This document shows, piece after piece, positions 44,649-50,077 of a DNA stretch of 64,000 bases. Numbering within the stretch: position 1 is the stretch's first letter; the number at the start of each line of letters is the position of its first letter. The notes below the pieces were generated by a model. The model was given only the letters and a program-made list of their open reading frames with translations. It had not been told where the DNA came from and did not search any database. The translations under genes and the position numbers were made by a program. This DNA comes from Pseudomonadota bacterium (GTDB taxonomy: Bacteria > Pseudomonadota > Alphaproteobacteria > Rickettsiales > UBA3002): positions 186,001 to 250,000 of the forward strand of contig JAZKJM010000001.1 of assembly GCA_040384265.1 (NCBI GenBank), read 5' to 3'.

Positions 44649-45425
44649 ATGTCGATCAGCCTGCTCAACTATTTCGTGATATCGCAGCTGACGGCGTTTA
44701 TCTTCCTGTTCGCCCGCATCGGCGCGGCACTGATGGTGATGCCCGGCATCGGCGACCCCTATGTGTCGCCGCGCATGCGGCTGATTATCGCGGTTGCCAT
44801 CAGCATCGTGCTGACCCCGCTGATGCAGGACCGCATGCCCGCGATGCCAGATAGCATCATCACCCTCACGCTGTTTCTGATCGGCGAAATCCTGATCGGC
44901 GCGTTTATCGGCATGATCGCGCGGACGATCCTTTCGGCATTGCATACGGCGGGCACGATCATCGCCTACCAATCCTCGCTGGCGGTGTCGTCGATCTTCG
45001 ACCCCGTCACCGGCGCGCAGACGGCGGTGTTGAGTAATTTCATGACCATCGTGGCGATGACGCTGATGTTCATCCTCAACATTCACCACCTGCTCATCGC
45101 CTCGGTGGTGGAGAGCTACCAGCTGTTCGTGCCGGGCGTGTTCCCAAGCATCGAGGATATGTCGAAGCTGCAGATCCGCATGGTGGCCGATTGCTTTACG
45201 CTGGGTGTGCTGCTGGCAGCGCCGCATATTGTGTTCTCGTTCATCTTCAACCTGATGAACGGCCTGATGGCGCGGCTGATGCCCAACTTCCAGATTTTCT
45301 TCGTGATGATGAGCCCGCAAATCATCATCGCGTTTCTGCTGATGTTTGCCATCCTGCCGGTGGTGATGGAAGTGTTCGTTGATTTCATGCAAGACCAGCT
45401 CCAGTATTTTGTAGGGGATCGCTGA
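44649..45425 (+). CDS. fliR: flagellar export gate protein FliR
   Basis: A 258-aa membrane protein with five to six helices. Signatures are FLFARIGAALMVMPGIGDP, MRLIIAVAISIVLTPLM, GEILIGAFIGMIARTILSAL and VVSYQLF-like (VESYQLFVPG). It completes the FliPQR gate and hands over to FlhB, whose start overlaps its stop by 1 bp (TGATG). Confidence 0.95.
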   Translation: MSISLLNYFVISQLTAFIFLFARIGAALMVMPGIGDPYVSPRMRLIIAVAISIVLTPLMQDRMPAMPDSIITLTLFLIGEILIGAFIGMIARTILSALHTAGTIIAYQSSLAVSSIFDPVTGAQTAVLSNFMTIVAMTLMFILNIHHLLIASVVESYQLFVPGVFPSIEDMSKLQIRMVADCFTLGVLLAAPHIVFSFIFNLMNGLMARLMPNFQIFFVMMSPQIIIAFLLMFAILPVVMEVFVDFMQDQLQYFVGDR

Positions 45426-46561
45426 TGTCGGAAGATTCAGACGATTCCTCAAAAACCGAGGAACCTTCCCAGAAAAAACTCGATGAAGCCCGCAAGAAAG
45501 GGCAGATTCCCGCCAGCCGGGAACTGAACCATTTTTTTATGATGCTGGCAGCGACGTTCTTCGTGTTTGTGCTGGGGCCGCACATGGCACTCAAGATCAC
45601 GGATTTGCTGGCGCCGTTCATCACCAAACCCGAAGCCTTCGAGATGAGCGCCGCCGGGGTATCGATGACGCTGAACATGGTGGTGTTTGGCATGCTGGGC
45701 GCGCTGGCATTGCCGTTCCTACTCACCTTCGCGGGCGCGCTGGCCCCGGCGGTGCTGCAGCGAAAAATGGTCATCTCGGGCGAACATATCAAACCCAAGC
45801 TGAGCAAGATTTCGCCACTCGCCGGGGTGAAGCGCATTTTCGGGATGAAGGCGCTGATCGAGTTCATCAAGAACTTCATCAAAATATGCGTGGTCGGTAT
45901 CATCATCGCCTCGGTGGCGATGCCCTACCGCGAGCAGCTGCCGCAACTGCTGCATTCGCCCAACAAACTGACGATGTTTGTGTACGCCGAGAAAATCGCC
46001 GGGAAAATCCTGATCGCGGTCTGCATCTTCCTGTTCCTGCTCTCCATCGTCGATTACCTGTACCAGCGCTTCACGATCATGAAATCGCTGCGCATGAGCA
46101 AGCAGGAAATGAAAGACGAATACAAGCAGCAGGAAGGCGATCCGCATGTGAAGCAGAAGATCCGCCAGATGCGGCGCGAACGCGCCAAGAAACGCATGAT
46201 GGCCAACGTGCCCAAGGCGGATGTTATCATCACCAACCCCACCCACTTTGCGGTGGCATTGAAGTATGATGCGGCAACGATGGCAGCGCCCAAAGTGTTG
46301 GCCAAAGGAGCTGATGAGGTCGCCGCCCGCATCCGCGAACTGGCAACCAAGCACAAGGTGCCGATCGTGCGTAACCCGCCGCTGGCGCGGATTCTCTATG
46401 ACACCGCCGAAATCGATGAAGCGATCCCGGTCGAGCATTACCAGGCGGTGGCAAAAATCATCGGCTACGTCTACCGCCTGAAGGGCAAGACACCGGGCGC
46501 ACCACCGCCCAAAGGCAAGGGCGGAAAAACAAAAATGCCCACGCTGAAAATGAAGAAGTAG
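45425..46561 (+). CDS. flhB: flagellar export switch protein FlhB
   Basis: A 378-aa protein with four membrane helices and a cytoplasmic domain that switches export specificity. The N-terminus is SSKTEEPSQKKLDEARKKGQIP. The autocleavage motif is intact in ADVIITNPTHFAVALKYD near residue 268. The C-terminal NPPLARILYDTAEIDEAIP and YQAVAKIIGYVY are typical. The tail is Lys/Pro-rich. A second, domain-only FlhB-like gene lies in the divergent operon at 42179-42547. Confidence 0.96.
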   Translation: MSEDSDDSSKTEEPSQKKLDEARKKGQIPASRELNHFFMMLAATFFVFVLGPHMALKITDLLAPFITKPEAFEMSAAGVSMTLNMVVFGMLGALALPFLLTFAGALAPAVLQRKMVISGEHIKPKLSKISPLAGVKRIFGMKALIEFIKNFIKICVVGIIIASVAMPYREQLPQLLHSPNKLTMFVYAEKIAGKILIAVCIFLFLLSIVDYLYQRFTIMKSLRMSKQEMKDEYKQQEGDPHVKQKIRQMRRERAKKRMMANVPKADVIITNPTHFAVALKYDAATMAAPKVLAKGADEVAARIRELATKHKVPIVRNPPLARILYDTAEIDEAIPVEHYQAVAKIIGYVYRLKGKTPGAPPPKGKGGKTKMPTLKMKK

Positions 46562-46646: not shown

Positions 46647-47624
46647 ATGCGTTTTAGTGAAATGGACTCCATGAACTCCGACCAGCTGGATTTTGTCCCA
46701 CGCGGTGATCGCAACCAGATTTTCAAACTCATCCTCGCATTTGTGCTCACCATCGCCGTGATTTTCGTGCTGGCTTATGCGCCGCTGGGGCTGGAGCTTT
46801 ACGCACCCCTGCTGGCCATTGTGCTTGTCGCGGTGCTGTGCCTGTATACGGTCGCCAGCAAACAAATCAGCATGGATAAGGTGATGTCGGCGGAATACCA
46901 GCTGATGCTGTTTTCGCAGGCGGCCACCCTCAATGCCAGCTTCTGCCTGTTCGTGCGGCGCGATGGCACGATTGTGTTCGCCAATGATGGGCTGAGCCGG
47001 GTGTTCCCGCACTTTGATTATTCGCAATCCCAGGCACTCGAAGGGCTGTTCGCGCAGAGCAATGTGCGTAAAGTAGACCGCGAGCGCATTCTCGGTGCGC
47101 TGCTCAGCAACAGCAGCGACCATATTATTTTCCCCATCGAAGGCCTGAACGGCGAGAGCAAGGATTACATCGTGACGGTGGATCCCCTCACCCGCCCGAG
47201 CGGTTTCTGCGTCATCCGCGGGCGCGAATATCTCGGCCAGCGCGCCGGCGCCCAGCGCATGCCCGATATGCTGCGCTCGACCTCACTCGACAAGCTGGAG
47301 CATTTGCTGACCACCAGCACCGCCGCCCAATATGTGACGGATAACTTCGGTAAGTTCGAATATGCCAATCCCGCTTTCGCCGCGCTGCTGGGCTATGCAC
47401 CCGGCGATATTCTCGATGCAAAACTGAGCCTGCACCACCTCGTCGTCACGCTGGGTGAACAGGTGATGACCGAGGAATACATGCTCAGCGATTATAGCGG
47501 CGAGGCCTCGCTGCTGCACCGCAACGGCTCATATGTGCAGGCGACGCTGTCACAATCGGCGCTGCGCGACGCGGCGGGCAAGGTGATCGGCGCCACCGGC
47601 ACACTCGCCGGGCAGGCCGCCTAG
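46647..47624 (+). CDS. cckA: membrane and PAS part of a split CckA kinase
   Basis: A 325-aa protein with two N-terminal membrane helices (LILAFVLTIAVIFVLAYAP and LLAIVLVAVLCLYTV) and two PAS-like modules (about 85-190 with LFVRRDGTIVFANDG, and 215-320 with YVTDNFGKFEYANPAFAALLGY). This is the sensory front end of alphaproteobacterial CckA. It ends at a TAG at 47622. After a single CCC codon the kinase part begins in the same frame at 47628. Together they would make about 863 aa. Either the kinase is made as two proteins, or the TAG is read through, or it is a mutation or sequence error. Confidence 0.82.
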   Translation: MRFSEMDSMNSDQLDFVPRGDRNQIFKLILAFVLTIAVIFVLAYAPLGLELYAPLLAIVLVAVLCLYTVASKQISMDKVMSAEYQLMLFSQAATLNASFCLFVRRDGTIVFANDGLSRVFPHFDYSQSQALEGLFAQSNVRKVDRERILGALLSNSSDHIIFPIEGLNGESKDYIVTVDPLTRPSGFCVIRGREYLGQRAGAQRMPDMLRSTSLDKLEHLLTTSTAAQYVTDNFGKFEYANPAFAALLGYAPGDILDAKLSLHHLVVTLGEQVMTEEYMLSDYSGEASLLHRNGSYVQATLSQSALRDAAGKVIGATGTLAGQAA

Positions 47625-47627
47625 CCC

Positions 47628-49238
47628 ATGCCACACCCACTGACACACGGGCTTGGATTTTCCGAAGCCAAAGCCACCGGCCTCAGCATCAACAGCTTTG
47701 TGGAACTCTCCCCCATTGCGATTGTGCGCCTCGATCACGCGGGCCACATCATCGAGGCCAACCGCTCGTTCCACACGCTGATGAACCATGTGCTGCCGCT
47801 GGATCGCTGCATCACCCTCAGCGAATTCATCGATGCCGAAGACCGCACCCGCTTTGCGGATGCCTTCCGCCGCACCCTCGCCAACGAGGTGGTGCCGCCG
47901 ATTTCGCTGACGCTGCGGTTGAACGAGGATGCAATCGTGATCGTGCACACCTATTTCAGCCTCATGCATCCGGGCGCGGGCCATGAGCCGGTGCCGGTGC
48001 TGCATATGATCGACCAGACCGAGCAGAAAAATCTCGAACTGCGCTTCTCGCACAGCCAGAAAATGCAGGCGGTCGGCCAGCTCGCCGGCGGCGTGGCGCA
48101 TGATTTCAACAACCTGCTGACCGCAATGATCGGCTTTTCGGATCTGCTGCTGATGCGCCACCCGGCGGGTGACCCATCCTTTGCCGATATCATGCAAATT
48201 AAGCAGAACGCCAACCGCGCCGCCAACCTTGTGCGCCAGCTGCTCGCCTTCTCGCGTCGCCAGACGCTGCAGCCCAAGACGGTGGACCTCACCGAAGTGC
48301 TCGCCGAGCTGAGCAACCTCATCCGCCGCCTGATCGGCGAGAATATCCAGATGAAAATGCTCCATGGCCGCGAACTGGGCATGGTCAAGGCCGACCAGGG
48401 CCAGCTGGAGCAAGTCATCATCAACCTCGCCGTCAATGCGCGCGACGCGATGAAGGGCGGCGGCACCCTCACCATCCGCAGCAGCAATGTCACCATTGAA
48501 TCGCCCGACGCGCTCGACCGCGACCTCATCGCCCCGACGGAGGACGAAGTGATTGTGCCCGGCGATTACGTGCTGGTGGAAGTCAGCGACACCGGCTCAG
48601 GCATTCCGCCGGAAATTGTAAAAAACATCTTCGAGCCATTTTTCTCGACCAAGGAAGTCGGCTCCGGCACCGGGCTTGGGCTCTCGACCTGCTACGGCAT
48701 CATCAAGCAAACCGGCGGCTATATCTTCGTGAAAACGGAGCTGGGCGTGGGCACCAGCTTCAACCTCTACTTCAAACGCTTCGAGGCGGATGCCACGCAA
48801 GCCACCACCACCGAGACGCATGAAGAAAAATCCGGCGGCGACCTGACCGGCCGCGCCACCGTGCTGCTGGTCGAGGATGAAACGCCGGTACGCATTTTCG
48901 CCGCCCGCGCACTGCGCAACAAAGGCTATCAGGTGCTGGAAGCCGATTCCGGCGAAAACGCCATCGAGGTTTTTTCTGAATCCGCCGCCACCATCGACCT
49001 CATCATCAGCGATGTGATGATGCCCGGCATCAACGGCCCACAAATGATCGCAACACTGTATGACACCCATGCCGAGCGAATGAAAAACATCCGCGTGGTG
49101 TTCATCTCCGGTTATGCGGAGGACGCTTTTGTCGATAGTTTCGGCAGCGAGCGGGCCTTTAATTTTCTGCCCAAGCCCTTCACGCTCAAGCAGCTGGCCA
49201 GCAAGGTCAAAGAAGTGATCGACGGAACCGCGGATTAA
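47628..49238 (+). CDS. cckA: CckA kinase/receiver part (PAS-HisKA-HATPase-REC)
   Basis: A 536-aa hybrid histidine kinase controlling the cell cycle (CtrA pathway in Caulobacter). The order is a PAS domain (about 20-125), HisKA with the phospho-acceptor His in [20 protein letters not shown], HATPase with [11 protein letters not shown] and [12 protein letters not shown], and a C-terminal receiver with [10 protein letters not shown] and the phospho-Asp in [36 protein letters not shown] is a CckA hallmark. It lacks membrane helices, which are in the preceding ORF of the same frame. There is no good ribosome binding site before its ATG. Its stop overlaps that of the convergent pilin gene in TTAA. 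Confidence 0.93.
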
Positions 49239-50077
49239 TAGCCGGTCTTAATCAGGAACGTACAGACAGTGCCCGCATTGCTCAGGTTGTAAACCGCAGT
49301 GCTGGCGGATGCGGTCGTGCTGCAATTGGGAACGCTGGCATTGCTGGTGGGATAGCTGATGATTTTGCCATAGCCGGGGCGCCCATCATCCAGCTTACTA
49401 TCGATGTTCCACGCCTCTTCCGCTTTGATGACCGGCGCACCAGTGCTGTTATTGTTATCCGCGCCGAAGAACAGGAAATTGCCAACACTGTCGCCAAAGA
49501 AATCAACCGTGGTGACCGGGGTATTGAAATAAGTAACATAGTAACCCGCCTTGGCGATTTTGCTGCGCGGCACGTTGGTGCCAATCACCGGCTGCTCTAC
49601 TGGCGTCCCACCACCGCCACCCGCAACGCCGGTATAGGTGCCCTCGATCAACCCGGCATTGGCCATATGCTGCCAGAAACGGAAACGCTCGCTCACCGTT
49701 GTGCCGCCATCCACCGTGCCGATCTGGCCATCACCATTGCCGTCGCAGGTGGCCGCGCTGGTGCTGGAAGTGGTGCGGCAGGTGGCCGGGGTGGCGTGGG
49801 CCGCGCCCCAGAAGCTGATCGCGTTGGCCATATCGCCCGGCAGCGCGAAATATTTGTCGCGGAAGGTGCCCATCGCAGTGATATAACGCTGGCTATCGCT
49901 GATGACGCTGCGCATTTCCGACGCGCGAATGAGCGACTGGCCGGATAAAATCCCCCCAACCAACAGACCGAGAATGACCAGCACAATCGACAGCTCAACG
50001 AGAGAGAATGCGCTCTTTCCGATTTTCCGGGATCGATTATCCACCTGAAGAATCATATGAAATACAACCAAAAGCAT
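49235..50077 (-). CDS. type IV pilin-like secreted protein, paralogue of 95-937
   Basis: A 280-aa prepilin with a leader ending KIGKSA, then FSLVELSIVLVILGLLVGG with the Glu at mature position 5. As in the paralogue, Ala replaces Gly before the cleavage site. The mature part has TFRDKYFALPGDMANAISFWG, a CDGNGDGQIG loop and EEAWNIDSKLDDGRPGYG. The start at 50077 gives a 23-residue leader; an ATG at 50056 would give 16 residues. It is convergent with cckA and divergent from recA. Confidence 0.85.
   Translation of the reverse strand: MLLVVFHMILQVDNRSRKIGKSAFSLVELSIVLVILGLLVGGILSGQSLIRASEMRSVISDSQRYITAMGTFRDKYFALPGDMANAISFWGAAHATPATCRTTSSTSAATCDGNGDGQIGTVDGGTTVSERFRFWQHMANAGLIEGTYTGVAGGGGGTPVEQPVIGTNVPRSKIAKAGYYVTYFNTPVTTVDFFGDSVGNFLFFGADNNNSTGAPVIKAEEAWNIDSKLDDGRPGYGKIISYPTSNASVPNCSTTASASTAVYNLSNAGTVCTFLIKTGY

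Follow-up and report, generated by a model that had tools for sequence, protein, structure and literature searches.

Why should the gene for CckA, which in Alphaproteobacteria carries polar and membrane cues to CtrA, consist in a member of the Rickettsiales of two open reading frames (ORFs) separated by little more than a stop codon? The question is raised by positions 46647-49238 of the window (the whole stretch of 64,000 nucleotides analyzed here), where an earlier note described a cckA gene interrupted by one in-frame TAG and left the choice between a genuine two-protein kinase whose catalytic part is soluble, amber readthrough, a recent nonsense mutation and a sequence error. As argued below, this cckA orthologue was very probably split by an ancestral gene fission, with the membrane sensor likely acting in trans on a soluble kinase.

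Two genes at the cckA locus

Translation of 46647-49238 confirms that two ORFs lie in one frame with only TAG-CCC-ATG between them: 46647-47624 encodes 325 aa and ends in TAG (47622-47624), and 47628-49238 encodes 536 aa and ends in TAA (49236-49238). The first ORF contains no other stop codon, and its start, the ATG at 46647, is backed by a conserved MRF/MRx N-terminus among relatives. Both halves are intact, as had been claimed, in that each ORF is complete and homologous to a part of CckA. The pair is more than a chance arrangement because both ORFs match CckA parts and because 38 loci show the two-gene form.

The upstream gene (46647-47624, forward strand, as are the features below unless noted) corresponds to the N-terminal half of CckA. 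Two transmembrane (TM) helices, at aa 25-43 (46719-46775) and aa 51-69 (46797-46853), are predicted by hydropathy; in the AlphaFold2 model (mean pLDDT 80.6), these become helices 22-44 and 52-93, the latter a long helix running to aa 93, and are followed by PAS-A and PAS-B. Pfam missed PAS-A (aa 99-194; 46941-47228), which is assigned from the model and from Foldseek matches to PAS proteins in the PDB, and recognized PAS-B (aa 214-322; 47286-47612; PF00989), in agreement with the model; Foldseek searches with the model of this half retrieved generic PAS proteins only. The downstream gene (47628-49238) corresponds to the C-terminal half, a hybrid kinase in which hydropathy reveals no credible TM helix. 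Here Pfam detects HisKA (48075-48263, with the phospho-acceptor His158 encoded at 48099-48101), HATPase_c (48393-48776) and a receiver domain (48861-49208, with the phospho-acceptor Asp462). The AlphaFold2 model (mean pLDDT 77) contains, ahead of the long DHp helix pair, the ATPase and the receiver, a further domain, PAS-C (aa 21-129; 47688-48014), which an NF046026 alignment from position 205 equates with the PAS-B region of Caulobacter CckA.

The identity of the kinase is supported by several observations. The downstream ORF is CckA-like by NCBIfam NF046020 (E 4e-184), and the two ORFs read through the TAG span positions 23-868 of this 868-position model, so that the CckA architecture is tiled by both: two TM helices and two PAS domains in one, PAS, HisKA, HATPase and REC in the other. 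The kinase core matches Caulobacter CckA (PDB 5IDJ) with E 4.6e-70 and keeps all catalytic residues; His158, Asn270, Asp321 and Asp462 are invariant across the split set. Also kept, in alignments to 5IDJ, 5IDM and 6TNE, is Tyr356 of the ATPase domain, the equivalent of Caulobacter Tyr514, mutation of which impairs c-di-GMP binding (PMC5189948). Both the C-terminal half (614 bits) and the read-through product (629 bits) fall below the NCBIfam equivalog cut-off of 1000 bits, but this cut-off cannot tell split from fused forms because fused CckA proteins of the same order miss it too (625 and 632 bits). With two ORFs, the second of which lacks a credible TM helix, the locus departs from the single-polypeptide membrane CckA. 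The same genome (G000) encodes ChpT (G000:C5:444315) and CtrA (G000:C5:441313; 406 bits, above the cut-off). A second, fused CckA was sought there and not found, the next-best kinase match having 28% identity.

The neighbor on the upstream side, 85 nt away, is flhB (45425-46561). The flhB-cckA synteny is common to fused and solo cckA orthologues, many of which have this neighbor, as do 21 of the 38 split loci; it is absent in the f5 stretches retrieved. Directly downstream, and convergent with the kinase gene, lies a gene for a type IV pilin-like prepilin (49235-50077, reverse strand).

Distribution of the two-gene form

The survey covered 343 genomes of the order, with many loci coming from fragmented metagenome-assembled genomes (MAGs). 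In the family to which the source genome belongs, two genes are present in all 13 genomes that yielded the kinase ORF; the kinase frame is 519-560 aa long in these, and an ORF for the N-terminal half lies directly upstream. The two-gene form is also found in families f4, f5, f13, f20, f23 and f26, which brings the total to 38 loci with both halves, in seven families. In two genomes, G010 (f1) and G247 (f26), the upstream gene is reduced to the TM region and PAS-A. Fused CckA, of 820-890 aa, occurs in f7, f8, f9, f11, f17, f21, f24, f28 and part of f29.

Soluble CckA is not in itself new in these data: kinases devoid of TM helices and of a linked N-terminal half are present in families f43, f125 and f163 of the class and in f6 of the order. 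The unusual part is the retained, adjacent membrane partner. Many kinases of f5 and solo kinases start with a short aromatic-basic segment (MFWNKK, MWFFSKK, MSLFDRWFRR, MPKWWKTW); this is the case for 7 of 9 f5 kinases and 5 of 8 solo kinases (the solo CckAs compared include G018, G330, G356, G488 and G438), versus 13% of background ORFs. Possibly, these N-termini substitute for a membrane tether.

An ordinary gene boundary

Comparison of the 38 loci bears directly on the four explanations. The upstream gene ends in TAA in 20 loci, in TAG in 10 and in TGA in 8; the distance from that stop to the kinase start ranges from -35 to +39 nt; and the two frames agree in 8 loci, below the one third that chance predicts. 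Stop, spacing and frame vary, and both ORFs remain intact. Alignment with fused homologues places every junction in the variable linker that follows the last strand of PAS-B and precedes the first helix of PAS-C, and the present one, at 47622-47630 (sensor stop, the Pro codon CCC and the kinase ATG), is no exception. Kinase starts have a median Shine-Dalgarno complementarity of -2.8 kcal/mol, close to the -2.6 of the upstream genes and superior to the -0.6 of internal ATG controls (p 1.6e-4). The sister genome G001, an independent assembly, carries the identical TAG at the same place, with the two ORFs again in one frame. Given the variation across the 38 loci, the in-frame TAG is an accident of the source species and this sister, not a conserved signal, and the frame agreement is due to chance. 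The TAG at 47622-47624 is thus an ordinary gene boundary, neither a mutation nor a readthrough site.

How do the other explanations stand up to these data? Amber readthrough, by which one mRNA would yield a short membrane protein and, through decoding of TAG, a full-length CckA, can point to the shared frame across a single TAG in the source genome and G001, but is very improbable given that the frames differ in 30 of the 38 loci, that any of the three stops is used and that the kinase gene possesses a start of its own. TAG is an ordinary terminator here (it closes 17 of the 46 long ORFs in the window, including flhB and alaS), and the amber-suppressor tRNA that the earlier note envisaged did not come to light: ARAGORN assigns a CTA anticodon to none of the 38 tRNA genes in the assembly, which is 95% complete. 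Nor is the TAG conserved in relatives as such a mechanism would have it (10 of 38 loci), and the locus was rejected as a programmed readthrough gene, the stop being in frame in 8 of 38 cases and represented by three codons. An error at 47622 might be suspected in a MAG-like assembly (2.0 Mb in 9 contigs), where single-base errors do occur, and a recent nonsense mutation or a decaying pseudogene has a precedent in Wolbachia, where cckA ORFs are split by single-base changes (PMC4426382), with similar-looking breaks within a domain in G044 (f17), G549 and G564. Both explanations retain a negligible probability. Against an error stand the independently obtained TAG of the sister and the split in every family member; against a mutation, the conservation of 38 loci with the N-terminal half intact throughout, low omega values and a junction located exactly at the linker. 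The 38 split loci were independently assembled, with varying stop, spacing and frame, which contradicts both, and an unbroken ORF, looked for in sister strains, was not encountered: G001 is split, as are all 13 family genomes that yielded a kinase ORF. For this clade, then, recent nonsense mutation or decay is refuted by the comparative data, and of the options originally listed, the one borne out is a true two-protein kinase, its catalytic part being soluble.

The breaks within domains are a separate matter. In G044 (L081), cckA is interrupted inside PAS-C (399 + 454 aa) and the close sister G045 has a fused gene; this break appears to be recent and of a different kind from the conserved fission. 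The short class-level ORFs of G549 and G564 result from apparent frameshifts inside PAS-B and are not clean splits.

Selection on both halves

Purifying selection acts on the membrane gene. When G337 is compared with G338, the closest pair (dS 0.28), omega is 0.034 for the N-terminal and 0.020 for the C-terminal part, and for wider pairs, where both are estimable, the ranges are 0.11-0.28 and 0.08-0.12, respectively. The ratio of N-terminal to C-terminal protein distances is 3.7 among split pairs versus 3.2 among fused pairs, and this near-equality indicates that fission relaxed the N-terminal part little if at all. The distances of the two parts correlate (rho 0.66), with shared ancestry accounting for part of the correlation. 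A pseudogene was considered and dismissed: the relaxed constraint expected for a cut-off part is not seen, with omega of 0.03-0.28 and a distance ratio near that of fused proteins.

Origin of the fission

When 77 sequences of the kinase part are placed in a maximum-likelihood tree, one fused f25 sequence groups with 37 split loci in a single clade (bootstrap 97, SH-aLRT 95), and a single split clade is not rejected either without f4 (p-AU 0.09) or with it (p-AU 0.12). Judging by this tree, one ancient fission in the ancestor of several families is the simplest reading. However, f25 and f4 are ambiguously placed, and for that reason a single origin is not proven. The f25 proteins (L051 of G136 and L067 of G135) have the TM region and PAS-A fused directly to a PAS-C kinase, with PAS-B missing. 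G136 sits inside the split clade, and the f25 form may represent a re-fusion or a branch that predates the fission.

How the two proteins may work together

What has to be accounted for is a conserved two-gene form in which both halves are under selection and the catalytic residues are intact. In the scenario that we favor, one transcript region would give rise to a membrane sensor (two TM helices, PAS-A, PAS-B) and a soluble hybrid kinase (PAS-C, HisKA, HATPase, REC) by termination at the sensor stop and a close restart, independent or coupled, at the kinase ATG. The kinase would retain the role that CckA has towards ChpT and CtrA; its membrane partner would bind it through PAS/PAS contacts, holding it at the membrane or the pole, and set the kinase versus phosphatase output in trans. 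In Caulobacter, the cytosolic part of CckA, without TM helices, shows activity in solution; polar accumulation and density-dependent activation at membranes require PAS-A, and control by c-di-GMP requires PAS-B (PMC4853435). Taken together with the alignment of PAS-C, these roles suggest that the fission parts a membrane and localization half from a probably c-di-GMP-responsive catalytic half, and it is from this separation that we infer recruitment and tuning of the kinase in trans. Furthermore, given that the membrane half persists beside the kinase and is under selection, non-covalent contacts may keep the kinase at the membrane.

The existence of soluble CckA with no linked N-terminal half in f43, f125, f163 and f6 implies, conversely, that the kinase may be able to do without the membrane protein. 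The fission could then be real and the membrane half could serve another partner or role, with the kinase alone in the cytoplasm. This alternative, which can also invoke the unlinked solo TM-PAS paralogues of the N-terminal half (one in the source genome) and the faster evolution of that half compared with the kinase, is distinctly less likely. It has to contend with the location of the N-terminal half directly beside the kinase across seven families, with a rate relative to the kinase that is nearly the same as in fused CckA, and with the correlated distances of the two halves, in part a matter of common descent.

The solo paralogues merit a description of their own. The one in the source genome, outside the window (G000:C1:304559-305104; L192:4781-5605), is an unlinked TM plus PAS-A protein of about 200 aa encoded upstream of an ABC-F-like ATPase gene; in a tree with weak support, its relatives in G001, G251, G255 (two in tandem) and G256 nest, together with it, within the split upstream genes. 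Another group of solo TM-PAS proteins (L197, L198, L199, L200, L201, L202, L203, L204, L205 and L206; 205-260 aa), typically with the N-terminus RFIDR, comes from genomes with fused CckA, and Pfam recognized nothing in the two members that were scanned. A rather doubtful idea is that the membrane subunits are exchangeable, such that the soluble kinase docks either on its TM-PAS-PAS operon partner or on duplicated solo TM-PAS paralogues; if so, alternative sensors would compete for one cell-cycle kinase.

More broadly, such a long-lived natural split between the membrane and localization part of CckA and its catalytic part suggests that the covalent link between them is dispensable in environmental and aquatic relatives of Rickettsiales. 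With its two parts already separated, the system also lends itself to studying how membrane position is relayed to the kinase.

Comparison with known systems

Split cckA ORFs are known already, and for the conserved two-gene form we found no description in the open-access literature; two papers on deep-branching Rickettsiales do not mention CckA in their main text. The closest relative in architecture is the fused three-PAS CckA of the order and of the Rhizobiales type (NF046020), with the same domain order and flhB-cckA synteny and a model that the two halves tile, from which the present locus differs by the interruption of the ORF at the PAS-B/PAS-C linker. Caulobacter crescentus CckA (PMC4853435; PDB 5IDJ, 5IDM and 6TNE) shares the homologous kinase core and receiver, the catalytic residues and the Tyr514 equivalent, and its two TM helices and PAS domains have counterparts in the two-gene set; it is, however, one polypeptide with two PAS domains, compared with two genes and three PAS domains here. 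Within Rickettsiales, cckA is also annotated as two ORFs in Wolbachia, namely in wAlbB, where the split was confirmed by resequencing and the receiver is truncated, and in the deposited sequence of wMel (PMC4426382). Those splits are ascribed to single-nucleotide changes in single strains, whereas the linker break described here is conserved over many families. Finally, the PAS-only DivL of Rhodobacterales (PMC9430884) is likewise a sensory PAS component that exists in the CckA network without its catalytic part, although it is a DivL, described as a PAS-only regulator, and not the N-terminal half of CckA.
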